Assembly (NCBI RefSeq): GCF_950097975.1
Contig: NZ_CATNHF010000002.1
Coordinates: 1 to 64,000, forward strand
From: Microbacterium sp. T2.11-28
GTDB lineage: Bacteria > Actinomycetota > Actinomycetes > Actinomycetales > Microbacteriaceae
Reading direction: 5' to 3'
Length of the DNA: 64,000 bases
Part shown: positions 1 to 14,956 of the stretch, one piece after another
How the letters are laid out: every line of letters starts with the position of its first letter
How positions within the stretch are numbered: the stretch's first letter is position 1
Program-made: the position numbers and the translations under genes
The notes under the pieces: model-generated
Seen by the model: only the letters and a program-made list of their open reading frames with translations
Database searches by the model: none
Told to the model about the DNA's origin: nothing

Positions 1-145
1 CCCCACGCCCAGAGCGGTCCGCGGCGTCGTACTCGGCCAGGATCGCCGCTTTGAACTCGGCGGTGAACGTCCGCCTCTTGGGCCGGTCAGCACGAGGAGC
101 CATAGCCCCATCATCGGTGCCGACGTCAGCAACCGTCATCGTCAT
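1..145 (-). CDS. Transposase N-terminal part (IS3-type OrfA-like), cut by the window edge
   Basis: The reverse strand reads from an ATG at 145 (a second in-frame ATG is at 139, another at 103) and stays open to the left edge. The product contains the stretch RRTFTAEFKAAILAEYDA, typical of the helix-turn-helix start of IS3/IS2-type OrfA transposases that bind the element's terminal repeats. Only about 48 residues are visible, so the family and whether the gene is intact cannot be settled. No terminal inverted repeat was recognised between 146 and 201. Its position at the edge of a low-GC gene block fits a mobile element in the accessory island. Confidence 0.7.
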   Translation of the reverse strand, partial: MTMTVADVGTDDGAMAPRADRPKRRTFTAEFKAAILAEYDAADRSGRG

Positions 146-201
146 CTCAGTATTGGTCCGTTCTCGCCCCGTGCAGTGCGAAGGTCAGCAGTGCTGGTGT
201 C

Positions 202-1176
202 TCACCCCATCCTGACGCACAGGGGCGTCCCGAAGGCTGAAGCGATGTCGTCATGTCCGGGTGGCTCGGTTATGCCTGACTTGGCGCGGCGATAGTCCTC
301 CAGCAGGTCCGGCTTCCGGTCCGTGACTTCGTTGTTCCAGTGCTTCCGAGGCTTTGGGTCGCGCTCCAGAATGGACTTCTTCGTGACGAACCGTTCGCCG
401 CGCAAGCGTCTAGAAGTTCGCCGGCGAACGAGAGTTGAGTGAGCACTGTCGAGTTCGACTTGCTGAAGGTAGGGCAGGACGAAGTGCGAGAGATAGTCGC
501 CTGGGTCAAAGGTGGGGGACTTGCGGACGACAGCTAGCGGAACTAGCAAGAGCTTGCCATTTGGCATCGGCAGGTCGACATGGTCAGTCACCCACGACTG
601 CGTTCGACGGTCCCACATCCAGCCTGAGTCGAGTCGCTGCACCATTGGGATGCCGTACAGAGAGCACACGTCCTGGGTGAACTTGATCAACTGGCTGCGG
701 ATGATGTTGATGGTCATATCGGAGACTCGGTCGTGCCCGACGCCATCAACGAACAAGACCGTCTCCTGAACTTCGCTGAGGATCCCCGATACGACCGCGC
801 TGCTCATCCCGAGAGCGTCGTAGATGTCGGCTGCAATGCCCGTCGCAACGCCACTACCGCGAGCTTGCGCACTCGACAGGCCGAGGTGTGCTTCGTTCGA
901 TTCGCCCAGTCGTCCGAGCAGGTACATCGCTCGCGCTCGGTGTGACGCTCTGACGGCTGCCAATAGTTCGCCGTAAAAGTCTTGAAGAAGACTGACGCAC
1001 TCGCGCGCCCAATCGCTCTCCATTGTGGTGAACGCGTGGGGGTCAACGAACACTCTGGTGTCACCCGTTACGTCGACATCGACGAATTCAAGCGAGGGCT
1101 GCGTAATGCCAAGCCGATAGAACTCAGAAACCCGCACGATGGCCCCCATCATGTTCGTTGCGCAGACGGGGCCCAT
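202..1176 (-). CDS. Conserved protein of unknown function, defence-island type
   Basis: A 324-residue soluble protein with no signal peptide or membrane segment. It has a conserved look: an N-terminal segment ITQPSLEFVDVDV followed by VFVDP, a central EAHLGLS, and a strong block GVGHDRVSDMTINIIR continuing into a TQ-containing helix. From memory, proteins with this SDMTxNIIR block recur in bacterial defence islands, but I cannot attach a named family or activity. The start is uncertain: two adjacent in-frame ATG codons at residues 9-10 (about 1150) are alternatives, and none has a clear ribosome binding site. It is transcribed towards the transposase fragment and has no same-strand close neighbour. 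Function unknown; the gene itself looks real. Confidence 0.7.
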   Translation of the reverse strand: MGPVCATNMMGAIVRVSEFYRLGITQPSLEFVDVDVTGDTRVFVDPHAFTTMESDWARECVSLLQDFYGELLAAVRASHRARAMYLLGRLGESNEAHLGLSSAQARGSGVATGIAADIYDALGMSSAVVSGILSEVQETVLFVDGVGHDRVSDMTINIIRSQLIKFTQDVCSLYGIPMVQRLDSGWMWDRRTQSWVTDHVDLPMPNGKLLLVPLAVVRKSPTFDPGDYLSHFVLPYLQQVELDSAHSTLVRRRTSRRLRGERFVTKKSILERDPKPRKHWNNEVTDRKPDLLEDYRRAKSGITEPPGHDDIASAFGTPLCVRMG

Positions 1177-1237
1177 CCTGCCGCATGGATTGGGTAACGA
1201 CGTGAGGCGCAGCAGCGGTATCCGATTTCGTCAGCGC

Positions 1238-1594
1238 ATGGAGGACGCACCGCTAGACGTGAAGGTCGGGGATATCGTCGCAATAAATCTGGCTCATCCC
1301 ATTCGCTACGACGACGGTCAAGGCGGCGAAGAGTTGCGATACGAGATTCGCATCCAGGTCGAGGGGGTGAGCATCATCGGTGTTTCGGGTCGCGGGCCCG
1401 ACGACGCGCCCGGGCCCATAACGCCGACCCACGACGGTCGAGGAGAGCGCCTTGGTGGTTCCGGCGTGGAGGGCGCGCGATTCTTCCCTTGGTCCGCCAT
1501 CGCCAACTTGGGACTCGGGTTAAGGACATGCGTCTGGCGCATGACCGTTCACCACCGCGGGCATTACCGGGCACGTGTGCCGCCGTCCCGCTGA
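1238..1594 (+). CDS. Possible small hypothetical protein
   Basis: An open frame of 118 codons from ATG 1238 (the frame stays open upstream to 1139, overlapping the neighbouring gene head to head). The middle part reads like a folded protein, with a VGDIVAINL strand, a region of alternating hydrophobic residues and FFPWSAI near the end, but the last 25 residues look less convincing. I recognise no family. If it is not a gene, 1177-1631 is a 455-base stretch with nothing else visible. Confidence 0.3.
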   Translation: MEDAPLDVKVGDIVAINLAHPIRYDDGQGGEELRYEIRIQVEGVSIIGVSGRGPDDAPGPITPTHDGRGERLGGSGVEGARFFPWSAIANLGLGLRTCVWRMTVHHRGHYRARVPPSR

Positions 1595-1631
1595 TCTCGT
1601 CTAGTCCGACCGAGCTCCGGGGCCCGGAACC

Positions 1632-2627
1632 TCAGGGGGCGTGTTCGCCCGACGCCATCCACTCGGTCATGTAACGAACAGGGCGACGCTCGACCAAGAC
1701 GTCCAAGGGCGAGCCGGTCGAACACATCACGTTGAAGTCCAACATCTGATGGGCGCGAACCTGCAACTCGTTGTCGAAGATCCCGCTCATCGCGAGGCTC
1801 GCCATCTCTCGGGCCACTCCCGCCAGGATGTCAGCGACCTGGACACGTGCATCCAACTTGGAGTCCACGAATCGTAGGTCCCGGAGATCGACGCCGTAGT
1901 GCACTCGACCCGTGATGAGCGTGGGGACCCGGACGGCCTCCAATATCTCGAACCGGGACTCCGTGTCTATGTCCCCGTAGTTGTCGGCTACGTACTCCAG
2001 TGCCACGTTTCCGAGCCTGAGCGTCCACGTACGTGCCACGGCGACCAACGCTGGCCACATCGGGTCGAACTCCCGTAGTGCTGACGTCCGTGCGTTCGCC
2101 AGGTCAGCCGCATCCTCGCGGTCCATCCACATTTGATGGAGGAGTTCACTTACATACTCATCGTTCGAGTGTCGCCAGGCATCCTCCAGAGCGTTGAAGA
2201 ATCTGTCCGGCGCGGGCCTCTTCGTTTCCCGCCGACGGTATGCCCGGATGAGCTCATTGAATCGGGACAGCAGCGTCCGCCACCGATCTTGACCGACGGC
2301 CGGCGGGCCCGCCGAATGCAGATAGTCCGCCCACTCGCGCGGCTGACCGGGGATCAAGGAATCGGGATTCTCGGCCAAGAGGGTCCCGACAAGCTTGGAA
2401 CTCACGAAGTATGACTTGTCGACCAAGTGGATGTTCCCCGCCTCCCCGAGCGCTTCGAGGAGATCGAGGACGGTCGAATCGGAGGCCGCGCTGTACGCTT
2501 CGAGCGCATCAATGCCGGGAGAGTGCTGCTGGTGTGCATCGCAGGTGCCCTCGAACGCGTAGCTGATTGACTGTCGAACCCCTCGGGATTCGACACCCCG
2601 CTTCCATCGCTCGAGGCGTCCTCGCAC
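1632..2627 (-). CDS. DUF3800-like protein, probably lacking its N-terminal part
   Basis: A 331-residue frame starting at GTG 2627; an in-frame TAG lies just upstream, so it cannot be extended. Near the C-terminus the segment FVDSKLDARVQVADILAGV matches the D-S-(n)-Q-A-D signature of DUF3800 proteins, an RNase H-like family common in mobile and defence loci, and an internal VDKSYFV block also fits. The family's N-terminal Asp-Glu-Ser-Gly motif is not seen in the frame or in the 130 bases upstream. This suggests a 5'-truncated gene whose break lies next to the repeat-bearing spacer at 2628-3133. Alternatively it is a divergent family member. The assignment is from motif memory only. Confidence 0.5.
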   Translation of the reverse strand: MRGRLERWKRGVESRGVRQSISYAFEGTCDAHQQHSPGIDALEAYSAASDSTVLDLLEALGEAGNIHLVDKSYFVSSKLVGTLLAENPDSLIPGQPREWADYLHSAGPPAVGQDRWRTLLSRFNELIRAYRRRETKRPAPDRFFNALEDAWRHSNDEYVSELLHQMWMDREDAADLANARTSALREFDPMWPALVAVARTWTLRLGNVALEYVADNYGDIDTESRFEILEAVRVPTLITGRVHYGVDLRDLRFVDSKLDARVQVADILAGVAREMASLAMSGIFDNELQVRAHQMLDFNVMCSTGSPLDVLVERRPVRYMTEWMASGEHAP

Positions 2628-3133
2628 GGCGCAAGACTATGCTTAGTTTTCGCAGCTATCCAGGGATTTTTCTGCGTTGGAGGTACATGTGGGGGAGTGC
2701 TTCTAAAGGGTGTCGCTCACCCCTGGTGCCTGCGTGCATCGCTGTTTCCTTCTCTCTCTTCCTTGTTGCCTCAGTTCGTCTTGGGTCTTGGGTCTTGGGT
2801 CTTGGGTCTTGGGTCGCGTTGGGCTCGTCTGCGGGGACCCGGTGGGGTCGGTGTGGTTCTCTCGGCTGGCGGGAGCTCTACCGGCCATGGCGCCGCCGTC
2901 GCGCATGTCTCCGCCGGGCTGTTCGAACCGGCACCCGCCAGCCACCGATGGCGGGTGTGGAACGGTCGCGGGGGACGGTGAGCGTGTTGCGATGACACTC
3001 CTGGGCTCCGCTATATTGCGATCGCGTGCTTCGTCACGGTGAGGCGCACTCTCGTCGCTCGACTCAACATGCAGAAGCATCGACCCTCGCTTGCCGGGGG
3101 ATCGGCTTTCCCTCACTCAGATAGCGACGGACA
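2628..3133. other. 506-base non-coding stretch with tandem repeat and hairpin
   Basis: No convincing gene on either strand. It contains five perfect CTTGGGT units at 2780-2814 and a 9-bp perfect hairpin (CACCCGCCA / TGGCGGGTG) at 2932-2957 that is not followed by a T run. Short open frames here translate to low-complexity repeats. It separates the truncated DUF3800-like gene from the membrane-protein pair and may mark a recombination junction. Confidence 0.6.
2780..2814. repeat. Tandem heptamer repeat, 5 x CTTGGGT
   Basis: Five exact head-to-tail copies of CTTGGGT, seen directly in the sequence. The copy number is short enough to vary by replication slippage. Any translation through it gives a simple GSWVL-like repeat, so a coding role is unlikely. 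Confidence 0.9.
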
Positions 3134-3844
3134 ATGTGCAAGGACTTGGCCTGGTGGTCGGAGCTCGGCTGCATCATCGCCTCGCCGGCGTGGACTGCCG
3201 GGGCGCTCCAGACTCTCATCGGCGTCCTCCTTGCTGGGGTGGCTACCGTGTTGGCGCTTCGTCGACAGCTGCGCCACGACCGCGACCTCGCCGCTAAACA
3301 GCTCGCCGCCGAGCGCGAAGTTCGCACCGCGGAGCGTCGGTCAGTAGCAGCTGACACGTACGGTCGGTTCATTTACTCCTGGACCGACGAGCTCTACGAC
3401 ATGCGACCGAGAGATCTTGGTCACCTGCTCCTCACCTCGGAGGAGTACCCCAATCACGGGGCCATGCTCGATGCAGAACGCGAGGCTGAACTGGTGTTTC
3501 AGCCCAGCGCAGTGGCTATAGATGCTTGGCGCGACTTGTCCCACACCTGGCGCGCCTCGCGCTCTGTCGTCATCGATGACAAGCTCCACGCGGCCTCCGA
3601 AGCCGATCTGGTCGACATAGGCAACGCGGAGTTGGCGATGTTGGAGCCGTCTATCCATCGGCTGCGAGCGATGGCCCTCGAGTACATTCGCTGGGACGGC
3701 GGTCAGCCGCCCGACTTCACCGGCTTGAATAACGATTGGCGACCTGTGCGACCCAACGACCGCGATCTCTACCGGTCGTGGATGGCGGACACAAAGACAT
3801 CTTTCAGGACCGAACTGCAGAAGCACCTTCGGCGACCGAACTGA
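3134..3844 (+). CDS. Hypothetical membrane-anchored protein with N-terminal coiled coil
   Basis: 236 residues. One hydrophobic segment at about residues 22-42 (TLIGVLLAGVATVLAL) is followed by a charged, coiled-coil-like helix rich in Arg, Glu and Ala to about residue 75, then a mostly helical soluble part with several Trp residues. The layout suggests a single membrane anchor with a cytoplasmic effector-sized domain. I recognise no family. It sits 211 bases upstream of a second small membrane protein on the same strand, which may be a partner. Low-GC codon use matches the island. Confidence 0.55.
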   Translation: MCKDLAWWSELGCIIASPAWTAGALQTLIGVLLAGVATVLALRRQLRHDRDLAAKQLAAEREVRTAERRSVAADTYGRFIYSWTDELYDMRPRDLGHLLLTSEEYPNHGAMLDAEREAELVFQPSAVAIDAWRDLSHTWRASRSVVIDDKLHAASEADLVDIGNAELAMLEPSIHRLRAMALEYIRWDGGQPPDFTGLNNDWRPVRPNDRDLYRSWMADTKTSFRTELQKHLRRPN

Positions 3845-4055
3845 CGCACCGAAGGGGTTTGACGAGTCAGTATGACTATTCCCAGGACGCGCCACCGCGG
3901 GAGGCACTCCCCGACCCCGGGCGCTTGCGGAAGGGTCGTCGCAGGCGCATTCACACACGGTCCGACCACGCGGCTGGGTAGTCCAGGGACTCCAGTTTGT
4001 TCGAGTACCCGATTGGCTCCGAGGGAATGTCAGCCGTGGGTGCGAGGGTGGTCCC

Positions 4056-4484
4056 GTGCCGAAGGTTCGCTCCCCATTCGTCTCTGCTTCCGTTCCGTAC
4101 CTCACTGACCGGGTGCCGGCGGGAGCGGTGCGGTACCTGCCCACCGGACCGGACGCGCCGCTCACGGCCGCCCGTGTTAACGACTTCATTGCGAATACCG
4201 CAGACAAACCCGACGTCCGGCTCGCCGTACTCGGGGTGCTACGCGCCCACAGCATGAATGGGGCGGAAGCCCCCGCGGCCATCTTCGCCGTCGTTATCGC
4301 TGCACTGACGGTTCTAGTCGGCACCACCCTCTCGGCTAGTGGCATCGGCGAGTTCCTGGGATGGGTGACGAGCGGGGGTCTCGTCATTCTCGGTGGCTGG
4401 TTCGCTCGACTTGCGTTCGCCGCCCAAGCCCGACGCATTATCTGCGGTGTTTGGCTCGCGGCCTACGAAGACGCTCTCCGCTAG
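4056..4484 (+). CDS. Hypothetical protein with two membrane segments
   Basis: 142 residues from GTG 4056. The first 70 residues are soluble; two hydrophobic helices follow at about residues 73-93 (AAIFAVVIAALTVLVGTTL) and 101-120 (LGWVTSGGLVILGGWFARL), then a short C-terminal tail. No family recognised. It lies between another membrane protein and a HEPN-motif protein, all on the plus strand and close together, so the three may be co-transcribed. The 211 bases before it hold no recognisable gene. Confidence 0.5.
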   Translation: MPKVRSPFVSASVPYLTDRVPAGAVRYLPTGPDAPLTAARVNDFIANTADKPDVRLAVLGVLRAHSMNGAEAPAAIFAVVIAALTVLVGTTLSASGIGEFLGWVTSGGLVILGGWFARLAFAAQARRIICGVWLAAYEDALR

Positions 4485-4567
4485 CGGCAGCCGGCGCTAC
4501 GACTTGAACTGTCCCCGGGATGGCATATCGTCCTGTCTCTGAAGCTGCAACAGAAGGGCGACCATAC

Positions 4568-6364
4568 GTGACTGACCGGTACGCATTTCAAGAGGCGCAT
4601 GTGGCTCAGGCTGCTGCCGTACTCGAGGCGCTTGGTCGTCCCGCGGGCGAACCGGCCGACGTCGCGGGCGCATGTTACGGGAATGCCGTTTTCGAAGCGC
4701 TGCCACCCTTACTCCAAGGTGAGCTGACGACGCTCCTTGGATACGAGCTCGACGATGACCCTTCAGGCGAGGGTCGGGCGCGGCTTACGCCTCAGGACGC
4801 GAACGCGGGCTTCTGGGGAGTCCGCCCGCTTAGTGATACACCGACCGATTCCGTGAGGTTGTGGCTTGGACTATTTTCGACAGTCACGGAGCCGGTCGTC
4901 CGCGGCCACCTGGCTGATCTGATCCTGACGTCCAGAACAGATACCAGCGCTCAGCACGCATCGGCGACCGTGGCGGGCTACCTGGACACGGCGGAGCGCG
5001 CTTCGACGGACTCGTTCTACGCAGCGATGGTGATCGTTCGAGCGGCTTCGATTGCCCGTTCGCGACGTATGACGGCAGAAGCCGATGTCTGGCTCGCGGG
5101 TGTCAATCTAGCGAGGCGTCTGCTCGACACCGAGACTGCGCCGGGTGGACCGGCCCGCGTCCTGGAAATGTTGACCCAAACGCCCCGCACATTCGTGCCC
5201 TCGGATGAGCAGCGAGCGACGGTCTCAGACTTGCTGAACGCCGCCGAGAGTCGCTACCGCGACGCAAACGCCGCGGATTGGATCGCTGATTGTCGTCGTC
5301 GTTGGGCCCGCACCGAAGAAGAAAGACTTGATGCCACCCGGCGGCAGACGGAACGGTATCTCTCGACCGCCGAGGACGGCGAAGGCTTCCTCCAGATGCA
5401 CTGGGCCTCCAAAGCCGCTCAGCTAGCAAAGGACCATGGTGCCGCCGACGCGTATGACGCGGCCGTCCGCAAGATGCAGTCAATCCCGCGCGATGCGATG
5501 GGGTGGCAGGCCATTGAGTCGACCGAGCGCCTACCGACCGTGGCAGTCCGCAGTCACATCCGTCGGGTGGCACGAGCCGGCTCCTGGGAGCAAGCTCTCG
5601 CTGTATTCCTTGCGTCGCCCTCGCCCGCTGGATCGTACGAGCACAACAAGAACGTGGCCCTTGACGCTGCGAAAGGCAGTATCCGCGGACTATTCTCGAC
5701 GACGGTGTTCGGCGTGCATGGTCTTCCGGAAAGGACCAACGACGCGTTCGAGGACGGCGAAATCCTCCGAATGGAGCAACTCGTCATCGGCACCCACGGG
5801 ATCCTCCTCGCCGAAGAGCTATGGGAGATCCAGCGAACATATGGCGCCGTCGCGATCAGCGATGTCGCCACCCGCATGACGGCGCGGTACGGTTCCGACC
5901 GGCTCCTGACCGTCGAGTTTGCCTCCGCCCTGGGCCTCTTCTGGGAGGAGCGCTACTCCGACGCCGCCCGAATCGCGCTACCGCTCATCGAGGCAGGAGC
6001 GCGCGGCCTCTTGCTGCGACTTGACGAAGCGATCTATCGCTTGGAGCGAGGGAGCTCGCCAGGTCGATTTCCATCCATGGACTTCTACATCGAGAAGCTG
6101 GAGGAGCTCGGCCTCGACCCCGATTGGGTGCGAGCAGTTCGAGTCGCTCTACTCTCCCCCGGGTCGAACGCCCGCAACCTCGCCGCGCACGGCTTCAAGT
6201 TCACCTTCTCTCCGACCGAGACAGCGGTGCTGCTCAGGCTCGCCGGACTGTTCTGCGCCCTACCCGTGTCGACTGACGCCGATGAGCTTCGCAGGCTACT
6301 TCCTCAGCCGCTGCGCTCAGCGCGAAAAGAGCTTCGGCGTCGATTGGGTTGGATCTGGAGATAG
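4568..6364 (+). CDS. Large helical protein with a HEPN-like RNLAAH motif (DUF4209-like C-terminus)
   Basis: 598 residues from GTG 4568, which has AGAAGGG nine bases upstream; an in-frame ATG at 4520 gives 614 residues but a weaker ribosome site. The protein is largely alpha-helical and soluble. Near its end it carries RNLAAHG (R552-H557 counted from the ATG), an R-x4-H arrangement as in HEPN ribonucleases and in the C-terminal part of DUF4209 proteins, followed by a hydrophobic helix. HEPN enzymes cut RNA in many anti-phage and toxin systems; activity here is inferred from the motif and island context only. It could also be a non-catalytic helical scaffold. Confidence 0.6.
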   Translation: MTDRYAFQEAHVAQAAAVLEALGRPAGEPADVAGACYGNAVFEALPPLLQGELTTLLGYELDDDPSGEGRARLTPQDANAGFWGVRPLSDTPTDSVRLWLGLFSTVTEPVVRGHLADLILTSRTDTSAQHASATVAGYLDTAERASTDSFYAAMVIVRAASIARSRRMTAEADVWLAGVNLARRLLDTETAPGGPARVLEMLTQTPRTFVPSDEQRATVSDLLNAAESRYRDANAADWIADCRRRWARTEEERLDATRRQTERYLSTAEDGEGFLQMHWASKAAQLAKDHGAADAYDAAVRKMQSIPRDAMGWQAIESTERLPTVAVRSHIRRVARAGSWEQALAVFLASPSPAGSYEHNKNVALDAAKGSIRGLFSTTVFGVHGLPERTNDAFEDGEILRMEQLVIGTHGILLAEELWEIQRTYGAVAISDVATRMTARYGSDRLLTVEFASALGLFWEERYSDAARIALPLIEAGARGLLLRLDEAIYRLERGSSPGRFPSMDFYIEKLEELGLDPDWVRAVRVALLSPGSNARNLAAHGFKFTFSPTETAVLLRLAGLFCALPVSTDADELRRLLPQPLRSARKELRRRLGWIWR

Positions 6365-6488
6365 GTCACACGCTCGGATTAGCGGCGCCGGGTCGTCCGA
6401 GCACTGCTCCGCGACATTACGAGCCGACGCACCTTGCGGCGCCGCCCGCAACGCCCCGGGACCGTGCGTCGCCCGTTCAAGAATCTGC

Positions 6489-8114
6489 TTACGGCCCGGC
6501 GGGCTCGTTCTGCGCGTCGAGCAGCGCAAGCTCGTAGGCCTGAACGAGTTCCGTCGAAAGCCGGCCACGAACTCCGACGGTGTAGCCGTTCTCGATGCCC
6601 CAGGCGCGGATCGCACCGGGAGAGGTGGTCGTTTGAACCGTGATGGGCGTGGTCCCAGCGGCGGCGGTCGTGGTCGTTGCTGCGGCACGTCTCGGCTTGG
6701 GTGCCGCGGCCTTGGCGGGTTGGAGGTGCTTGACCAAGATGGCGTAGGTCTCCGGATCAACGATGCGGGTACCGAGTTCCTGTGCTCGCGCGAGCTTTCC
6801 TCCTGCAAAGGAACCGTCACTCACGAGCATCGCGGTGAGACCGGAAACAGTTCCGAGCACGCGGACGCCGAGCTCCTGGGTTCGCCGCTCCAGCCGTGCT
6901 CGTTCACGTTCGCGCCCATCGAAGCCCGTGAAAACGACCTTGTCGCCGACGCGCAGCGGCTCCCCGAGTGCCCAGTCCGCAGGAAGCGGACCGAGTTTCG
7001 CGCCGAGCCGTGTCGCGCGCGCGGCGTCTGCCTCGGAGATCAGCTTCGGAACGAGTTCGCCCGACAGTCGCAGTGACGATGCGATGGACTCGAGTTCGGT
7101 CCGCTCGTCGCGGGAAACGTGGCCGTCGTCGAGCGCCTTGTGCGCGAGGGCGAGCACTAGGGCCTGGTGCGCGTCAGCCACATCGGCGTCACTGAGCTCG
7201 TAGACCTCGACGAGGTCCTGCAAAGCGGCAGCTTCATCTTCGGAGATGACGCCGTCCTCGAGCGCATCCAGCAGGGTTTCGACGTACGTGAGTGATCCTA
7301 CGGGCGCCCCCTCGTCAAGCACTTCGGGGAGGCTGAGCTTCGACAGCTGGGTGATGAGCGCAGGCTGCTTTGGCTTCGCCTTGGTGACCCTGATCGGACG
7401 CGACCGAGCCGAGACCCGCTCGTCGGGCAAGAATTCAAGAGGTGCCCGGCTGGGTCCTGAGGGCCACACCACGCCTCGTGCGTCACTTTGCACCGAGACA
7501 AGTGCCGGGTGCGGACCCACTCGACCTTGCACCTGCAGGTAGTGGCGAAGAAGGCCGGCGGTCGCACGAGCATCGCCGAGGGCCGAGTGCGCACCGTTCA
7601 GCGGGACGCGAGCGCTCCAGCAGCAGTCGACCAGACGACGGCGGTCCAGATCAGGCATGTAGTGGTGGCTGCCGTCGAGCGTGCAGTATGCCGGCAGCCA
7701 GGGAACGTCCCAGCCTGCGCGGCTGAACTCCGCGCGCAGGAACGCAAGATCGAAGCGCGCGTTGTGCGCGGCGATGGGCAGCCCCGCGATGTACGGCACG
7801 ACGGAAGCGGCGACATCGCGGAAAAGGGGCCCGTTCGCCACATCGGCCTGCGTGATCCCGTGGATGTGTGTTGCGCCGACAGGCCCCTCGGGGTTGAACC
7901 GGGTTGACCACTCGTCGACGACGTTGCCGCCTTGATCCACTCGGACGACCGCGAGCTCAAGCACGCGGTCCTTCTTCGGGGATAGGCCTGTAGTCTCCAC
8001 GTCGATGATGGCGAAGTAGGGCGGGCGCGAAAGCGGAGGCGGCGGGGCCACCCGCGGTGCCGCCGTCTCCTTCTTCGCGTTACCGCCGCTAAACAACCAA
8101 TCGAGCCAGCCCAT
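6489..8114 (-). CDS. DEDDh 3'-5' exonuclease fused to BRCT and Lsr2-type domains
   Basis: 541 residues from ATG 8114, preceded by GGGGAG. Domains in order: a DnaQ-like exonuclease at about 30-195, with D38-V-E40 in IDVETTG, HNARFD around D122, and H176-x4-D181; a helical, acidic, possibly TerB-like region at about 270-375; a BRCT domain at about 395-475 (KVVFTGF start); a flexible Ala/Thr linker; and a C-terminal IRAWGIENGY block like the Lsr2 DNA-binding domain. The exonuclease trims DNA or RNA 3' ends in the cytoplasm; BRCT and Lsr2 parts would direct it to damaged or AT-rich foreign DNA. That targeting role is inference. The neighbour 5' to it is the divergent mcrBC operon. Confidence 0.8.
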   Translation of the reverse strand: MGWLDWLFSGGNAKKETAAPRVAPPPPLSRPPYFAIIDVETTGLSPKKDRVLELAVVRVDQGGNVVDEWSTRFNPEGPVGATHIHGITQADVANGPLFRDVAASVVPYIAGLPIAAHNARFDLAFLRAEFSRAGWDVPWLPAYCTLDGSHHYMPDLDRRRLVDCCWSARVPLNGAHSALGDARATAGLLRHYLQVQGRVGPHPALVSVQSDARGVVWPSGPSRAPLEFLPDERVSARSRPIRVTKAKPKQPALITQLSKLSLPEVLDEGAPVGSLTYVETLLDALEDGVISEDEAAALQDLVEVYELSDADVADAHQALVLALAHKALDDGHVSRDERTELESIASSLRLSGELVPKLISEADAARATRLGAKLGPLPADWALGEPLRVGDKVVFTGFDGRERERARLERRTQELGVRVLGTVSGLTAMLVSDGSFAGGKLARAQELGTRIVDPETYAILVKHLQPAKAAAPKPRRAAATTTTAAAGTTPITVQTTTSPGAIRAWGIENGYTVGVRGRLSTELVQAYELALLDAQNEPAGP

Positions 8115-8487
8115 GCTTCTCCCCATGTCCCTGCGCTGCCGATTGGGGAGCGCACTCGACCCATCATGCCGCGGCGGGCCGACCTGGCATGTACGTGTGC
8201 GATGACACACAGGCATGTCGTCAAGTGAGCAACGGGTTCAGGTCCCGTCACTCACCTCGATGTCCGCGCATTGACCACCGGGTATCGGGGCGACTCGTCT
8301 ACTAGTCGAGGCGTCCGAGCCGCCAGTACTCGCTGCGGGGGATTGCATCCGCTCAGTACAGCGAAGCGACCGCGGTCGATCGCAGTGTCGGACGATCGGC
8401 AAGCGCTGATTCGGATCCGTACTCTCGTTGCCCGCGGGCCCGGGATGGCGCGGCCGACCGGATTCGCCCCTGCAATAGGTTGGCGAC
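8115..8487. other. 373-base divergent intergenic region
   Basis: Lies between the exonuclease fusion gene and mcrB, which point away from each other, so it should hold both promoters. No gene is visible. It carries a hairpin at 8225-8255 and a small palindrome CGACT/AGTCG near 8290-8308. I cannot assign -35/-10 boxes with confidence. Confidence 0.5.
8225..8255. other. Hairpin with a tRNA T-arm-like tip
   Basis: GTGAG (8225-8229) pairs with CTCAC (8251-8255); ACGGG (8232-8236) pairs with CCCGT (8244-8248) around the 7-base loop TTCAGGT. The tip resembles a tRNA T-arm, but no other tRNA parts surround it. It could be a regulatory stem, terminator-like structure or old attachment remnant. Confidence 0.4.
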
Positions 8488-10017
8488 ATGACAGACGAAC
8501 CCCAAAGCCTCCCGCGTGGCCTTGGCGAATTGATCCAGGGAGTGCTCGAGCTCCAAGTCCACTTCACCCCCCTGGCTTCGCCCGCGATGTCGCGCCGGCG
8601 CGAACTGATCAACGCAATCGCAACTGAGTTCGCCTCACTTCTCGCCTCGTCGGATGATCATGTATCGCAGGTGAAGGGAAGCAACGGGGCCGGCAACAAT
8701 GCCAAGGTGCCCTGGGTACGGGTTTTCGATCCTGCTCAATCGCCCCGACCAACCCTCGGCTGGTACGTCGTGCTCCTGTTTGCCGCGGACGGATCTGCGG
8801 CCTATCTGTCGCTCAACCAGGGCGTAACCAAGCTGGATCCGGGCGGCATCGAAGTCAACGTTTCAGATGGATGGCGCCGAGTATCTGAATCGCCGGCCTC
8901 GAGGACTCCGTTGATGGACGAAGCAACTCGTGATGTCGACCTGCGCGACCCGGGTCTCGGCGCCCAGTACGCTCGTGGCAACCTGCTGGCCTTCAGATAC
9001 GGCCGAGACGGGATCCCGAGTGACGGGGACATCAAACGGCACCTGCGGTGGCTGTCAGAGCTATTGACGATCCTTCCGACTACCGACGCACTTCCCAGTC
9101 AGAATCGCACCCCGGCGGAGCCGGCGGTCCGCGAGGTGCCGGCGTTCCAAGACGCGGGGCAGGTGGAACTCAGGACGATCAGAAACGCGATCCACTGGTC
9201 TGAGGACGAGATCCTGAACACGGTTGAGAGCCTTCGGGACGCGAGTCCGCAGATCGTATTGGCGGGACCTCCCGGCACGGGCAAGACCTTCGTTGCTCGC
9301 CACCTTGCTGCCTACCTTCTCGGGCAAGCGGGGTACGTCGACAACAATCCGCAGATCGAAGTCGTGCAGTTCCATCCGACGTATGGGTATGAGGAGTTCG
9401 TCGAGGGTCTCCGCCCGACGATTGGCTCCACCGGCGCGTTCGAGTTCGCCCCGGTTGCCGGGACGATCGTCCAACTGGCCGACGCCATCGCAGAGGACGG
9501 CCAGCCGCGCGTGCTGATCATCGACGAAATGAATCGGGCGAATCTTCCCCGTGTATTCGGCGAGCTGTACTACCTGCTTGAGTACCGCGAGCAGGAAGTC
9601 CGACTCATGTACCGGAATAGGTTCGCGTTGCCGGAACAGCTGTTCATCATCGGAACCATGAACACCGCGGACCGGAGTATCCGGAGCGTCGACTTCGCGC
9701 TACGAAGGCGCTTCGACTTCTTCGATGTCACCCCATCATCGGACATTCTCAAGGCGCACTACTCCGAGGAAGGCCATGTGAATGAGCTTGGACCGTCCCT
9801 GTACTCCGGATTCGATGCCCTGAATGAAGCAGTCTTCGCACTCATGGGTGACCGCCACCACGGCATCGGCCACAGTTACTTCATGCTGGATCGAATGAGT
9901 CGGGCCACTCTGCGGGCAGTGTGGGAACGACAGGTGCAGCCGCTACTGGAGGACTACGTCGGCGGCAACGTCGCGAGTCTTGATGGCCTAAGCGTTGAGG
10001 GCCTCTTCGGCGAATGA
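8488..10017 (+). CDS. mcrB: McrB-type GTPase subunit of a type IV restriction enzyme
   Basis: 509 residues. The N-terminal 190 residues form a DUF3578/MrcB-type module (WYVVLLFAADG then YLSLNQGV) that would recognise modified DNA. The C-terminal AAA+ motor has Walker A GPPGTGKT (260-267), Walker B LIIDEMNR (Asp at 346) and the McrB-specific MNTADRS (391-397), which stands for the guanine-specificity NKxD motif. Together with McrC it would translocate on and cut DNA carrying modified cytosines, or another modification read by the N-terminal module. The stop overlaps the mcrC start by 4 bases (ATGA at 10014), so the two are translationally coupled. Confidence 0.92.
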   Translation: MTDEPQSLPRGLGELIQGVLELQVHFTPLASPAMSRRRELINAIATEFASLLASSDDHVSQVKGSNGAGNNAKVPWVRVFDPAQSPRPTLGWYVVLLFAADGSAAYLSLNQGVTKLDPGGIEVNVSDGWRRVSESPASRTPLMDEATRDVDLRDPGLGAQYARGNLLAFRYGRDGIPSDGDIKRHLRWLSELLTILPTTDALPSQNRTPAEPAVREVPAFQDAGQVELRTIRNAIHWSEDEILNTVESLRDASPQIVLAGPPGTGKTFVARHLAAYLLGQAGYVDNNPQIEVVQFHPTYGYEEFVEGLRPTIGSTGAFEFAPVAGTIVQLADAIAEDGQPRVLIIDEMNRANLPRVFGELYYLLEYREQEVRLMYRNRFALPEQLFIIGTMNTADRSIRSVDFALRRRFDFFDVTPSSDILKAHYSEEGHVNELGPSLYSGFDALNEAVFALMGDRHHGIGHSYFMLDRMSRATLRAVWERQVQPLLEDYVGGNVASLDGLSVEGLFGE

Positions 10018-11252
10018 AGACACTCCGCCTCATGGAGGCGCGAACAGCCACACATGGGCTCACCGACGACCAAGCGGGGAGGCTGGCTCTCCTCGGCAAG
10101 AAGCTCGCGGGGGAGCGGCGGTGGTGGGGAAGCAACGGCGCGCACGGCGACGATTCCCGATCCGTCTTCCGGCTGACCAAACTCTTCGGAGGCAGCTGGC
10201 GCATCGAAGTTGGCAACGTAGTTGGCGTCGTCGGACTTCCGGACCTCACGATCATCGTCGAACCGAAGATTGGCATGCAGCACTTCATGCACCTGCTCGC
10301 CCGGTCAAACGGCATGCCTCGCGTCGACTCGGCGATGACGTCGCTCGAGGCCGCTGCAGGTCTGCAGCGACTCGTTATCGAGTGGTTCGTTGGAGAGCTC
10401 GACACGCTATTCCGTCGGGGTCTTGTGAAGGACTACGTGCATTCGTCGGAACGGCTTCCGCACGTGCGGGGCCATGTCAGCTTGGTGTCAACATCCCGCC
10501 AGTGGCTGCAGGGCCGAATTCTCGTGGACTGCGAGTTCGACGACTTCTCCGAAGCCACACCGTTCAACCAGTACCTGGCAGCGGCTGTTTCCCAGTCGAT
10601 TCGCTCCCCGGCGGTTAACGAACGCCTTCGGATGAGGCTGGCCTACTTTGCACGCGAGCTTCCCCCTGCGTCCCGTGAAGCGCGGGACGACGTTGATCTC
10701 GACCGACTCCCCGCACGCTACCGCCATTACCAGACAGCTCTGAAGTACGCGTTCGACATTCTTGCCGGGGTCGGCCGCTCCCTCGAGTCCGGCGACCACG
10801 CCTCTGGGACGTTCCTCTTCAACTCGGCAGCCGTTGCCGAGGATGCGATCCGCCAGGTGCTCGCTGACGCACTCGCCCCGATGCGCGTCGTCAAGACTGG
10901 TGGACGTCACCTGCTCCCCGCGTTTGTGTCGGTGAATCCAGACCTCGAGATTGGGCCGCCTCCGTTCACGGGGGACGTCAAGTACAAGATTGGTGATCGA
11001 AGCTGGAATCGCCAGGATCTCGCCCAAGCCGTCCTGTTCGCCGCGGCATACAAGAGTCCGCACGCGGTTATCGCGGACTTCGCCCAAATTGAGGTACTTC
11101 ACCCTTCGCTAAAGGTTGGCGACATCCACGTTTCACGTCTCCGTTGGGCAATTGGCGAAGGGACTGATCCCGAAGACTCTGAACGCCGCTTCGCAGAGTC
11201 TGCTCGCAAGCACATGGAGGGGGTCGCGACTAAGGTCTTCGCCACCGCCTGA
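10014..11252 (+). CDS. mcrC: McrC-type nuclease subunit of a type IV restriction enzyme
   Basis: 412 residues. An N-terminal McrB-contacting region contains GLPDLTIIVEPKIG, and the C-terminal PD-(D/E)xK nuclease core is visible as PDLEI (D310) followed by GDVKYK (D321, K323) and a Gln-bearing helix (QDLAQAVLFAAAY). This subunit stimulates McrB GTP hydrolysis and makes the double-strand break. It starts inside the mcrB stop codon. Downstream it converges on the DUF2075 gene with 27 bases between stops and no clear terminator. Catalytic residues appear intact. Confidence 0.92.
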   Translation: MKTLRLMEARTATHGLTDDQAGRLALLGKKLAGERRWWGSNGAHGDDSRSVFRLTKLFGGSWRIEVGNVVGVVGLPDLTIIVEPKIGMQHFMHLLARSNGMPRVDSAMTSLEAAAGLQRLVIEWFVGELDTLFRRGLVKDYVHSSERLPHVRGHVSLVSTSRQWLQGRILVDCEFDDFSEATPFNQYLAAAVSQSIRSPAVNERLRMRLAYFARELPPASREARDDVDLDRLPARYRHYQTALKYAFDILAGVGRSLESGDHASGTFLFNSAAVAEDAIRQVLADALAPMRVVKTGGRHLLPAFVSVNPDLEIGPPPFTGDVKYKIGDRSWNRQDLAQAVLFAAAYKSPHAVIADFAQIEVLHPSLKVGDIHVSRLRWAIGEGTDPEDSERRFAESARKHMEGVATKVFATA

Positions 11253-11279
11253 GAGGAGAAGCCCAGCATCAGCTTTGTT

Positions 11280-13040
11280 TCAGAGAGCTTGCTCGAAACC
11301 GACGCTCGCGATCGTCTGGCGCACGTACTCGCGTAGATCTGGATCGCACACGTAGACGTAAGTTCCCAAGATTCCTCGCGTGAGCAGCACGCCATAGATG
11401 TTCTGAATCAGTGTCAGGAGATCCCGGTCAGTCGTCTCCCTTCCCAGCTTCGCGAGGTTCTCCTTGCCCTTCTTGTCGCGGTAGGCGTCGCGGTCGACCA
11501 AAACCTGTCGGGTGGGCTCGTCGTAACGGAGGTCGCCGCCGATGATCACGCCGGCGTAGTTGAGGTCGTAACCCTGCACCGTGTGAATCGAGCCGACCTC
11601 GTCGATTGAGCCCGGGGAGTTGATCCAATCCTTGTCCGTGCGATTCCAGACGAACCCAATTCCCTCCAGTTCGAAGTCAAAGCCGGGTCCGTTGCCGCGG
11701 GTCTTCCAGTCCCAGGCGTAGCCCGCCACGAGTCGGGCGAGCCCCACCTCGCGGTTGCGGTCGCGGATGGCCTGCTGCATTTCCGTGACGCTCTCGAAGA
11801 ACCGCAGGTCGTATTCACCGAAGTCTGGGCGGTCGCCCGTGCGAAGTTCACCCCGAAGCAACTGGCGGACGAATCCCACGTAGTCTGCGTCCGCCCTTAC
11901 CCGCATCTGTCTCGCCAACGGAAACCACCGATGCACTCGCTTGGCGTCAGTGATCTCAGCGGCAAGAACCTCGCTCGGGAGGTCTGCCGGCCGCACACCT
12001 TGCTGCTCGTCGATGAGCAGGATCTGGTGCGTACTCTGCGCTCGGATCCAATCGAGCTGCGTCTTGCTGAGGTCGTCAGATCCGAAGAGCCGTTCGTTGA
12101 TGTCGGTGAAGTCGCGGTTGCGCATGCCCGAGGATTGGTTCGCGCGGCGATTGAGCCGGTGCGTCTCGTCGACGATAAGCAGGTCGAACGGCATAGACGA
12201 CTTGCCGACATCGAACGGGTTCAAGACGAGGTCCTCACTCACCTTCGGCGTCTTCTTGAACACCTTCTTGATCGATTCTCGAAGCGACTGCTGGGGTACG
12301 ACCAGGCCGACGCGAACGCTCTTCAGTAGCTCTCGATTCTCGGGGACGAAGAACTCAGAGAAGAGGGAGTCCTGCTCGATCTCATCGGTGTCTTCGTAGT
12401 CGCGAATGTCCGCCAGCAGCTTCATCAGGAAGATCGCCACGATCGTCTTGCCCGTACCCGGATCGCCCTGGATGACGCTGGTCGATCGCGTGCCTGTCGC
12501 GAGGTCCGCGAGGAGTGCCTCGACGATCTGCTCGACCGCGATGGCCTGCTCCTGCGTGAGCACCTTGAAGGGAGAAAGCTTGAACAGGTCGCTGTTCTCG
12601 ATCTCCGGGATGCTGCGCTGAAAGACGCCGTCGGAGCGCAGCTGCTCGAAGATGTCACGAAAGCTCTGGCGGTACTGATCGCGCTCGTAGTACCGCGCAT
12701 CGATGATGCCCTCGTTCCCGTTGAGCACGGTGAAATTCCCGTCACCGGCGAGCCAGCGGATGAGGTGCGACTCGAGGTCGAGGCACGCCGACTTGTTGAA
12801 CCTCTCGTCTATGACGACACGGACGCGACGGAATCCTGCTTTCGATGGATTCTGGAGGTGCTGACGCATTCGCGACGCGGCGCTGACGGTTTCGCCCACG
12901 TACACCGAGGGCAAACCTGAAGAGTCGACATTGTCCAGGATGTATACAACGGGCCAGTTCGCGCGACGCTCGTCACCGACTGCCCAGTTCGCGACCGCGC
13001 GGTGTGTGAAGTCCAGCCGCTCGATCTCAAAGGGCGTCAT
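11280..13040 (-). CDS. GIY-YIG nuclease fused to a DUF2075 (Schlafen-like) helicase
   Basis: 586 residues. The N-terminal 100 residues form a GIY-YIG endonuclease: VVYILDN and VYVGET give the two name-giving strands, with an Arg in SAASRMRQHL, Glu in DLESHL and Asn in LNGNEG. Then follows a superfamily 1-type motor of the DUF2075/Schlafen group: Walker A GDPGTGKT (192-199), Walker B LLIVDETHR, and the C-terminal SIHTVQGYDLNYAGVIIG motif. It would cut and unwind or translocate nucleic acid. The upstream MazG-like gene overlaps its start by 14 bases, so both are one transcription unit. Role as an anti-phage effector is inferred from the domain set and island position. Confidence 0.85.
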   Translation of the reverse strand: MTPFEIERLDFTHRAVANWAVGDERRANWPVVYILDNVDSSGLPSVYVGETVSAASRMRQHLQNPSKAGFRRVRVVIDERFNKSACLDLESHLIRWLAGDGNFTVLNGNEGIIDARYYERDQYRQSFRDIFEQLRSDGVFQRSIPEIENSDLFKLSPFKVLTQEQAIAVEQIVEALLADLATGTRSTSVIQGDPGTGKTIVAIFLMKLLADIRDYEDTDEIEQDSLFSEFFVPENRELLKSVRVGLVVPQQSLRESIKKVFKKTPKVSEDLVLNPFDVGKSSMPFDLLIVDETHRLNRRANQSSGMRNRDFTDINERLFGSDDLSKTQLDWIRAQSTHQILLIDEQQGVRPADLPSEVLAAEITDAKRVHRWFPLARQMRVRADADYVGFVRQLLRGELRTGDRPDFGEYDLRFFESVTEMQQAIRDRNREVGLARLVAGYAWDWKTRGNGPGFDFELEGIGFVWNRTDKDWINSPGSIDEVGSIHTVQGYDLNYAGVIIGGDLRYDEPTRQVLVDRDAYRDKKGKENLAKLGRETTDRDLLTLIQNIYGVLLTRGILGTYVYVCDPDLREYVRQTIASVGFEQAL

Positions 13041-13347
13041 ACTTCGCGCTCCGTCCCTTCGACCGCTCGGCCGGGTACTTGGCGCTGGTGACCGCCAGCT
13101 TTTCGAGAACGATGTCGTCTAGATCGAGCCCCAGTCGTTCGGCGAGGAGCGTGCAATAGGTGACGACGTCGGCCAGCTCCTCGCGGACGCGCGCCTCGTC
13201 ACCGTCATCGCTCCACTGGAAGCACTCGAGCAGCTCAGCCGCCTCGATCGAGATGCTCTTCGCAAGGTTCGCCGGGGTATGAAACTGACCCCAGTCACGC
13301 TCGCGCACAAAGCCGGACAACGCCTCACGAACTCGCTCACTCGTCAC
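13027..13347 (-). CDS. MazG-like nucleotide pyrophosphohydrolase
   Basis: 106 residues if it starts at GTG 13347, which gives the usual family beginning (SERVREALSGFVRERDWGQFHTP); ATG 13395 and a start at 13488 are also in frame but add residues unlike the family. The metal-binding signature of all-alpha NTP pyrophosphatases is present: EAAELLECFQW, then EELADVVTY, and a Lys/Tyr-rich end. Such enzymes hydrolyse NTPs, dNTPs or alarmones to monophosphates. Its last 14 bases overlap the GIY-YIG/DUF2075 gene, suggesting a joint system in which nucleotide depletion or signal hydrolysis accompanies nucleic-acid cleavage (inference). Confidence 0.85.
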   Translation of the reverse strand: MTSERVREALSGFVRERDWGQFHTPANLAKSISIEAAELLECFQWSDDGDEARVREELADVVTYCTLLAERLGLDLDDIVLEKLAVTSAKYPAERSKGRSAKYDAL

Positions 13348-13456
13348 GTTTGCGACGCTAGCGCAGAGCTGGCCCTGGGTCGCCTTTGAACGCATCGGAA
13401 TGCGCTTGACTTCGTCGTGCTTTCTCCTCGCTGGCACCAGAGAGCACGGGGCTCTC

Positions 13457-14065
13457 TCAGCGCTGCACGAGATTCGCGTTGCGCCCATGTGCCGTCAGGA
13501 CGGCCGCGGCGAGCTCCGTGATGCCGACGGCTTCGGTCAGCCCACTGACTCTCGCCAGGCTGAGGCTGTCGACGTTCAGCGACACGAGTTGCGCCTGCGG
13601 TAGGACGAAGAACGACCATGCCGAGACATCGAGTGGGTCGTAGGCGTTATGCTCCCGGACGGTGTGCGCCGCGAGCACGTACACGTCCGCCTTGTAGCTC
13701 TTCTCGGGCGACATCCCGGCCTCGATATCACCCCATGAGTGGGCACGCAGACCGGTGAATCGAATCTGCGACAGCTGACGCTGCGCCCACACCTGAAGGT
13801 GAGCTGACGCCTTCACCTCGATCGCGATGTCGTTCCACAGCACGTCGTAGTCATCCCATTCGGTGCGCAGCGCGTTCACGCCGAGCGCCCGGGCCACCAT
13901 GAACTCCGCCAGATACCCACGCGTGTTGTTCACGCGCAGGTCTGACATCGCGAAACGCCAGAAATCCTGGACCGTAGCGTCCATGCCTAGGAACCTCTCG
14001 TCACCGCGCAGCGGAACGCTGGGTGGCGCGGGAATCCACGGAGATGGCTCGGGTGGCGTGCTCAT
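13457..14065 (-). CDS. PD-(D/E)xK-like nuclease-fold protein of unknown role
   Basis: 202 residues, soluble. The order RGYLAEFMVARALG, WDDYDVLWND, IAIEVKAS gives E54, D74, E83-x-K85, the layout of a restriction-endonuclease fold as seen in many defence nucleases. The C-terminal half is beta-rich with a conserved-looking WSFFVLP segment. It is 109 bases upstream of the MazG-like gene on the same strand and probably belongs to the same unit. No named family recognised; nuclease activity is inferred from the motif spacing. Confidence 0.65.
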   Translation of the reverse strand: MSTPPEPSPWIPAPPSVPLRGDERFLGMDATVQDFWRFAMSDLRVNNTRGYLAEFMVARALGVNALRTEWDDYDVLWNDIAIEVKASAHLQVWAQRQLSQIRFTGLRAHSWGDIEAGMSPEKSYKADVYVLAAHTVREHNAYDPLDVSAWSFFVLPQAQLVSLNVDSLSLARVSGLTEAVGITELAAAVLTAHGRNANLVQR

Positions 14066-14179
14066 GAAAGGACGCTACAACCGCTGCTCATGGCCGTGCA
14101 TCTTCATCTTCCACGAACTCGTTGGTGGGCGACCGCCCCGCTTCGCCGTGAGAGCCATCGGGCGTCATAGATTGAAACC

Positions 14180-14653
14180 GTGAGCTCCGACCATGACCCC
14201 GAGTTCCAATCGGAGTGGCGCGCGTTCGACATGCTCGTCGATCACGCGCGCGATCTGGTGGGAACCGCAGCTTCTGTCGAGGTCGGGTCGCTTTACGAAG
14301 GCCGCATGGGTGCCTGCGATATCTTGCCGCGAAATCCGCGAGCGCGCGCGATCTCGCTGACCTCCGAGCAATGGCTGATCGTGGAGGTCGGTCACCCCGG
14401 GGGTCGGTTTGAGCTCGACTACGCTCCGGAGCACGTTGAGCGGGCTAAGCGGATCATTGAAGCCGCCATCGCGGGTCGTGCGACGGAGAGATCGGCTTTA
14501 GGCCGCTCGCGTGTCACGCTCACGATGGAGGACGGAGAGCGGCTCAGTGAGACCGGATACTCCGGATGCGCCGCACTTCTCGTGCCTCTCCCGGGGTGGA
14601 CCCGGTGGGGGGAGCTGAAGACGTACGAGCCCTATGACGCACCCGTCCCGTGA
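14180..14653 (+). CDS. Hypothetical protein, unrecognised
   Basis: 157 residues from GTG 14180. Compact alpha/beta composition with no membrane segment: an N-terminal helix WRAFDMLVDHARDLV, a strand region around WLIVEVGHPGGRFELDY, and a C-terminal GCAALLVPLPGW. It looks like a real folded protein, but I know no family. It diverges from the nuclease-fold gene at 14065 across 114 bases, which must hold both promoters; no boxes were identified. Confidence 0.5.
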   Translation: MSSDHDPEFQSEWRAFDMLVDHARDLVGTAASVEVGSLYEGRMGACDILPRNPRARAISLTSEQWLIVEVGHPGGRFELDYAPEHVERAKRIIEAAIAGRATERSALGRSRVTLTMEDGERLSETGYSGCAALLVPLPGWTRWGELKTYEPYDAPVP

Positions 14654-14685
14654 TCACGCGGGTGCACATCGACCGCAAGTGAGTT

Positions 14686-14868
14686 CTACTTCGAGCCCCG
14701 CACCTCGTGCCAGTACGCAGCCTGATCGCTGGTCTGCCGATGGATCGCGTCCGGTCGCTGCTCGTCGACGGGCCACAGAGCGAGTTCGTAGCGGTCCGGT
14801 GCAGGACCTTCGAAGTCGGTAACTCCATGCTGTCCCTCTGCGGTGCGGAGACCGAAGGCCGGCGATCC
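14686..14868 (-). pseudogene. C-terminal fragment of a protein gene, no start codon
   Basis: On the minus strand an open frame bounded by an upstream TGA and ending at TAG 14686-14688 encodes about 60 protein-like residues, including DRYELALWPVDEQR and AAYWHEVRGSK, but has no ATG, GTG or TTG in a usable place. It looks like the tail of a gene cut off when the island inserted or decayed. It sits between the last island gene and the 3' end of tRNA-Arg. Confidence 0.45.
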
Positions 14869-14883
14869 TCAATCTAGAAGAAG

Positions 14884-14956
14884 TGCCCCCGACAGGAATC
14901 GAACCTGCGACCTTTGGTACCGGAAACCAACGCTCTATCCCCTGAGCTACGGAGGC
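14884..14956 (-). tRNA. tRNA-Arg (anticodon CCG)
   Basis: 73 bases fold as a full cloverleaf on the minus strand: acceptor GCCTCCG with CGGGGGC plus discriminator A, D-arm GCTC/GAGC, anticodon stem TTGGT/ACCAA with loop TTCCGGT giving anticodon CCG, and T-arm GCAGG TTCGATT CCTGT. The CCA end is not encoded (CTT follows). The 3' end faces the accessory island, the usual geometry for an integration site. I found no second copy of its 3' end in the window. Confidence 0.95.

Follow-up and report, generated by a model that had tools for sequence, protein, structure and literature searches.

Whether the AT-recognition that serves gene silencing has been put to use in the destruction of foreign DNA as well is a question for which a gene of Microbacterium sp. 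T2.11-28 provides a test case. This gene lies in the window analysed here, i.e. the whole stretch of 64,000 nucleotides at the start of contig NZ_CATNHF010000002.1, within a host genome of 3.4 Mb that belongs to the same genus as its Microbacterium relatives. A preliminary description, made from the letters alone, had read its product as an exonuclease joined to a BRCT domain and an Lsr2 DNA-binding domain, and had suggested that the fusion aims a 3'-5' exonuclease at incoming DNA, with AT content telling self from non-self in a 70% GC genome. The coordinates then given for the gene (6489–8114) are correct, and the strand, which had been left unstated, is the minus strand, with the ATG at 8114 and the stop codon ending at 6489 (Table 1). 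A longer reading from an alternative ATG at 8216 appears less likely, because the alignment with close relatives begins at the ATG at 8114.

Table 1. Features of the exonuclease gene and of its surroundings in the window.
Feature	Position	Strand	Basis
PDC-S48-type DEDDh exonuclease with TerB-like, BRCT and Lsr2 domains, 541 aa	6489..8114	(-)	PDC-S48 profile E 1.5e-126, residues 32-464
Ribosome-binding site GGGGAG, preceding the exonuclease ATG at 8114	8119..8124	(-)	Direct reading of the sequence
DEDDh (RNase_T) exonuclease domain, residues 36-188	7551..8009	(-)	Pfam RNase_T 7.5e-25
TerB-like helical region, residues 253-372 (Pfam TerB 317-370)	6999..7358	(-)	Pfam TerB 2.4e-4, below cut-off
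BRCT domain, residues 393-455	6750..6938	(-)	Pfam BRCT 0.0075, below cut-off
Hypervariable linker, residues 468-496	6627..6713	(-)	Mean pairwise identity 0.18, 13 tailed members
Lsr2 DNA-binding domain, residues 497-529	6528..6626	(-)	Pfam PF23359 8.9e-10 and genome search match
AT-hook-like RGR motif, residues 516-518	6561..6569	(-)	Invariant in 13/13 tailed members
McrB-like ATPase with MrcB_N	8488..10017	(+)	Pfam MrcB_N 1.4e-23, AAA_5 5.2e-18
McrC-like protein	10014..11252	(+)	Pfam McrBC PF10117 2.4e-26
GIY-YIG and Schlafen-group-3 helicase	11280..13040	(-)	Pfam 8.3e-66 and 4.4e-5
MazG-like protein, overlapping the helicase start	13027..13395	(-)	Pfam MazG-like 5e-20
tRNA-Arg(CCG), 3' end toward the low-GC stretch, at its edge	14883..14956	(-)	

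The catalytic DEDDh residues D38, E40, D122, H176 and D181 are all present, as had been described, and in an alignment of 24 family members (13 with and 11 without the Lsr2 tail, L091 being omitted) D38, E40, H176 and D181 are invariant (24/24), with position 122 occupied by D in 22 members and by E in two (L094 and L097). The Lsr2-like C-terminus was likewise borne out: Lsr2_DNA-bd (PF23359) is matched with 38.2 bits, over its cut-off of 26.9, the isolated last 136 residues still match at 1.5e-10, and Lsr2 C-domains were among the matches in the PDB. Since no N-terminal Lsr2 oligomerisation domain was found in the protein by Pfam at E values up to 1, it is best described as carrying an Lsr2 domain yet not being an Lsr2. 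A C-terminal DNA-binding domain with RGR is thus common to the exonuclease and the Lsr2/CgpS silencers (39% identity over 31 residues to the host Lsr2), whereas the exonuclease has no N-terminal oligomerisation domain and its Lsr2 domain is joined to a nuclease.

The BRCT domain of the preliminary description was recovered by Pfam only weakly, with 16.9 bits against a cut-off of 21.3, although this cut-off is passed by four of the 11 relatives scanned (L078, L082, L087 and L088); L090 is over the PTCB-BRCT cut-off only, and the other six are over neither. Two features had been missed, namely the match to PDC-S48 (see below) and the TerB-like region, in which D287 and E294 are conserved in 24/24 members and D330 in 23/23 rows with a letter at that position. 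TerB itself misses its Pfam cut-off (21.8 bits vs 24.4), and among the 11 scanned relatives it scored 22.2 in L034, 16.9 in L089 and 19.9 in L095 and was unlisted at E 0.01 in the other eight; residues 317–370 should consequently be termed TerB-like only, not TerB. Sequence relatives in the PDB comprise PolC and epsilon exonuclease chains, RNase T, DNA ligases (over the BRCT) and the Lsr2 C-domains. The best of these for the exonuclease domain is the PolC-type exonuclease 2p1j (8.8e-16), and exonuclease chains of DNA polymerase III score highest among the solved relatives. The substrate is likely to be DNA, not RNA.

Structure prediction of each domain, which had been put forward as a check, succeeded in part. 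The full-length AlphaFold2 model (five sequences) was unusable, with a mean pLDDT of 42.3 and values of 64–78 for the tail blocks (residues 501–530), and a model of residues 376–541 was of low confidence (pLDDT 54.6). The modelled tail superposes on the Lsr2 C-domain 2kng (prob 1.00, 1.5 Å, 39 columns), but with an E value of 0.17; BRCT structures fill many of the top Foldseek ranks for the model of residues 376–541, all of them weak, and no Foldseek match to this partial model reached E 0.001. The modelling may therefore be regarded as supportive of the Lsr2 and BRCT identities and not as decisive.

Residues 32–464 match positions 4–408 of the 411 in the PADLOC PDC-S48 model PDLC05027 (E = 1.5e-126), and the distant tailed member L085 also matches PDC-S48 (8.7e-119). 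The likeness to PDC-S48 is hence nearly end to end with respect to the model, and the difference lies in the Lsr2 tail beyond it, since neither the match to PDLC05027 nor that to PDLC05028 extends into the tail. The exonuclease core is ordinary, belonging as it does to a known defence-candidate family, and it is the Lsr2 tail that is unusual. Assignment to PRK06063/NF004719, which we take to be an actinobacterial family with a BRCT domain, was rejected: the DEDDh domain is shared, whereas the model comprises 331 positions against 541 residues here, and the match amounts to 157.6 bits in two stretches against a curated cut-off of 389 bits. PDCs are single-gene putative defence candidates obtained by 'guilt-by-embedding', according to the available part of PMC12988326 (citing Payne 2024); PDC-S48 is thus a candidate defence family only, and the defence function of the exonuclease is a predicted one. 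Literature searches, with most subscription papers and preprints outside their coverage, found no paper naming PDC-S48 and, among the results listed, none on a fusion of Lsr2, exonuclease and BRCT. The anatomy described above, i.e. exonuclease, TerB-like region, BRCT and an optional DNA-binding tail, is newly added to the family.

The distribution of the gene is patchy. At E 1e-40 the exonuclease was matched in 14 of 366 genomes of the genus Microbacterium; in 12 of these the matched region takes in the Lsr2 tail, and in the other two it does not. A search of 396 genomes of the phylum returned 24 with a match at 1e-25, mostly to the exonuclease part alone, G343, G302 and the genome of the window being the only ones in which the match spans the tail; the PDC-S48 profile matched 50 of the same 396 genomes at 1e-40, many by the exonuclease domain only. 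Beyond Microbacterium, the tailed form was found in one more distant actinobacterium. A betaproteobacterial contig (L035) that matches residues 1–213 only (32%) was excluded from the family counts. No record in the phage and plasmid collections covers 80% of the protein; the best plasmid match (Arthrobacter) covers 60% of it at 34% identity, and phage matches cover 29–43% (best 20 of 31).

Approximately 18–22 kb around 24 relatives were fetched, giving 25 members with genomic context when the window is included. The tail is present in 13 of these and absent in 12, from which it is best regarded as an add-on, not as the basic means by which the PDC-S48 family finds its target. Untailed members terminate past the BRCT (in L096, short of it) or have other sequence; L094 carries DUF2510, and L091 has CxxC pairs with RGRK, as judged by eye, in a protein where Pfam gives exonuclease matches only. 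In a tree of the core, the 13 tailed proteins form one clade (100/100); several untailed rows are long-branched and 12 of the 13 tailed proteins come from one genus. Mean pairwise identity among the 13 is 0.76 in the exonuclease, 0.60 in the TerB-like region, 0.68 in the BRCT and 0.61 in the Lsr2 domain, compared with 0.18 for the linker that precedes the tail and 0.11 for the residues that follow it, and within the tail R516-G517-R518, R503, W505 and G510 are conserved in 13/13. Because of the single clade, and because tail identity exceeds that of the flanking linker and end, the tail looks like a single acquisition that has been held under constraint. Additionally, L078 and L081 have about 180 extra residues beyond the Lsr2 tail, with a sub-threshold HIRAN match in L078 only.

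The suggestion that AT content separates self from non-self met with counter-evidence. Long A/T stretches are the preferred sites of the Lsr2-like CgpS, which relies on oligomerisation for silencing (available part of PMC7002338). Three Microbacterium phages, two of which are close kin (Dismasvirus), have GC contents of 66.5, 67.0 and 69.0% and contain, per 10 kb, 0.57–0.97 A/T runs with a length of 6 or more. The corresponding values are 0–0.5 in five stretches of the host chromosome, 0.2 in the core of the window, 2.7 in the island that carries the gene and 0.46–4.5 in 12 other tailed loci. The genomic GC content of 70% named in the suggestion holds for the chromosome (70–74% in five sampled stretches) and not for the gene's own stretch, which has 63% GC and is the AT-richest measured in this genome; under discrimination by AT content, this island would itself be a target. 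As the phages are GC-rich and the island is the AT-richest stretch, AT content as the main discriminator is improbable, with a modest A/T bias of the tail being possible.

The 63% GC stretch spans positions 1–14880 and adjoins tRNA-Arg(CCG), with a GC step from 0.63 to 0.72 at its edge; argS lies at 16843–18507. It is probably an island, in which no repeat of the tRNA-Arg end was found, the contig beginning at base 1 of the window. Within it, the exonuclease gene is accompanied by genes for McrBC-like proteins, of which the McrB-like ATPase matches only REase_II (1.1e-12) in PADLOC and the McrC-like protein gave no PADLOC match. ORFs 202–1176, 1632–2627, 4056–4484 and 4520–6364 gave no Pfam match at 0.01, and a weak PADLOC match to PDC-S39 was observed for ORF 4520–6364.

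Including the window, strong defence-type neighbours are found at six of the 13 tailed loci (the window, L031, L033, L034, L080 and L082). In L031 (Microbacterium rhizomatis), the genes near the exonuclease include a restriction enzyme of type IV at 686–3784 (E = 0) and, at 12266–13780, the reverse transcriptase DRT UG22 (1.1e-157). PADLOC matches near the exonuclease elsewhere include PDC-S28 in L033 (2.4e-270), LmuA (Lamassu) in L034 (1.3e-52), a HamB/Hachiman-like helicase in L082 (1.2e-26) and a mad3-like gene in L080 (2.8e-55), with weaker neighbours being capP-like in L032 and L034, PDC-S45-like in L084 and a subtilase in L083. Among 29 neighbours of tailed loci, which were chosen by hand and not at random from neighbourhoods that were each scanned only in part, 13 match PADLOC at 1e-5 or better, six of them below 1e-20; the limits of the scans ranged from 0.01 to 1e-5 and matches weaker than 1e-5 were left uncounted. 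The remaining 16, including all those at L078, L079, L081 and L085, gave no match at 1e-5, and none was obtained for ten control genes from five core stretches of the window's genome (0/10; a small set from one genome). Ordinary metabolic or transport genes adjoin the exonuclease at L032, L033, L079, L084 and L085. The tailed loci occupy mostly different sites, as long common flanks were seen only between L082 and L083 (blastn E 1e-20); other common flanking DNA consists of a MazG/helicase block of roughly 2 kb, a stretch of 1.6 kb that L079 has in common with L080, and one of 112 bp common to L032 and L081. The defence-candidate core, patchy spread, mostly different sites and defence-type neighbours together argue for a defence role, which we consider probable. 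The earlier suggestion is thus supported in part, as regards a defence role, and not as regards the AT-based self/non-self test.

The reading that we prefer, and to which we give somewhat better than an even chance, is that of a mobile single-gene DNA nuclease of the PDC-S48 family, directed against phages or other elements, which degrades 3'-5' from ends and is held on duplex DNA by its tail. The DEDDh domain would remove nucleotides 3'-5' from DNA ends, and the BRCT would recognise ends, nicks or breaks; a Thr-Gly and a Lys are kept in it as in ligase/RFC-type BRCTs, where they presumably contact the 5'-phosphate. The TerB-like part may join copies of the protein or hold a metal. The Lsr2 tail, on its flexible linker, would reach with RGR into the minor groove of duplex DNA rich in A/T, so that the nuclease stays on double strands close to the end being trimmed; the chances that it tethers the nuclease to AT-tracts as such are evenly balanced. 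Linear, nicked or restriction-cut incoming DNA would be attacked in this manner, with the tail providing retention and an A/T bias and no strict test of self and non-self.

Alternatively, the protein could be an accessory repair or recombination exonuclease that happens to ride on islands, with BRCT and DEDDh domains processing broken ends and the tail serving as an anchor, either on the nucleoid or on the AT-rich island itself; it would then protect the mobile element and not the cell. A DEDDh relative encoded on the chromosome of this genome (36% identity over residues 16–190), the partial PRK06063 match (157.6 bits, two stretches) and the position of the gene in the AT-richest stretch measured in the genome are consistent with such a role, as is the fact that Lsr2 tails can serve invaders, given that phage Ku-Lsr2 fusions help to circularise incoming phage DNA (available part of PMC8612146). 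However, the score for PRK06063 lies far from 389 bits, the match to a defence-candidate model is near full length and is accompanied by defence-type neighbours, and flanks differ at nearly every site, so that no single element owns the exonuclease; we judge this explanation unlikely.

The MazG-like and helicase genes in the window raise the further alternative of a larger system, in which the GIY-YIG/Schlafen helicase unwinds and the exonuclease trims. The helicase (E 1e-60) is found in 87 of the 366 genus genomes, the exonuclease in 14 and both in seven (one-sided Fisher p 0.027); the two lie less than 6 kb apart in six of the seven and about 26 kb apart in G563, with two of the six close-pair genomes being near-copies (L082/L083) and hence not independent. 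Furthermore, in L088 the exonuclease and MazG/helicase genes stand in the same order and on the same strand with no gene between them, and in L157 a weak exonuclease relative (30%) is located 1.1 kb upstream of the MazG gene. These associations are set against the 80 of 87 helicase genomes that have no exonuclease at E 1e-40, the seven of 14 exonuclease genomes that have no helicase, and the variable orientation of the two genes among loci. Moreover, of 19 helicase loci picked without an exonuclease relative, 18 show none in 20 kb, the relative in L157 being weak only. The idea that exonuclease, MazG and helicase obligately form one system was relegated to a rival reading on the 80/87 count, and membership of any larger system of this kind is decidedly improbable. 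The MazG-like protein and the GIY-YIG/Schlafen-group-3 helicase look like a two-gene system of their own, and we read their link to the exonuclease as common residence in defence islands, perhaps with cooperation, and not as a fixed system. The MazG gene lies just upstream of the helicase in 19/19 helicase loci outside the exonuclease set.

An abortive-infection effector, i.e. an RNase or general nuclease that its TerB-like and Lsr2 parts keep inactive until infection, is very improbable, for although the DEDDh fold includes RNases (RNase T was matched in the PDB sequence search) and TerB is found in two defence systems, Shango and Bunzi (available part of PMC10952713), DNA is indicated by the BRCT as well as by the Lsr2 domain, and likewise by the DNA polymerase III exonuclease chains that are its best solved relatives.

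Lsr2 tails are not confined to this exonuclease. A search for the domain in 198 genomes of the phylum, with no more than 36 first-look candidates scored in each, gave at least 38 matches in 20 genomes. Besides the window's own match, seven with long frames were opened and 30 left unopened; six of the seven are fusions (two AEP-TOTE primase-helicases, one D12 adenine methyltransferase, two ERCC4 nucleases and one SUKH protein), and the remaining one (L142) looks like a normal Lsr2 within a long frame. L136 and L137 are AEP-TOTE primase and SF2 helicase proteins with the Lsr2 domain at the C-terminus, and a terminal Lsr2 domain is similarly borne by L138 (the D12 adenine methyltransferase) and by L139 and L140 (the ERCC4-type nucleases). 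These proteins share the C-terminal tail domain with the exonuclease, whereas their catalytic domains are unrelated to it. Some type II methyltransferases probably also bear an Lsr2 tail, because positions 530–575 of the 587 in the PADLOC MTase_II model PDLC03328 match the tails of L085, L136, L138 and L139.

The available part of PMC8612146, from which the AT-hook-like designation of the RGR motif is taken, describes a Ku-Lsr2 fusion with this motif in cluster J mycobacteriophages. As in the exonuclease, a short C-terminal Lsr2 tail is there attached to a protein acting on DNA ends; Ku-Lsr2 differs, according to the same part of that source, in being a phage-encoded end-joining protein that is no nuclease and serves the phage. 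That unrelated DNA enzymes and phage Ku bear the same tail suggests a module common to both sides of the phage-host conflict. A bolder and rather doubtful generalisation is that actinobacteria have turned the DNA-binding half of a silencer into a plug-in homing tail for nucleases, methyltransferases and primase-helicases, by which foreign DNA would be destroyed or modified ('xenogeneic degradation'); if true, the PDC-S48-Lsr2 exonuclease would be its clearest case. The host itself encodes a complete Lsr2 of 125 aa (L005:1231–1608), and a second Lsr2-type DNA-binding tail is present in the host at L004 (G000:C7:22557-22664), in a frame of only 92 codons.
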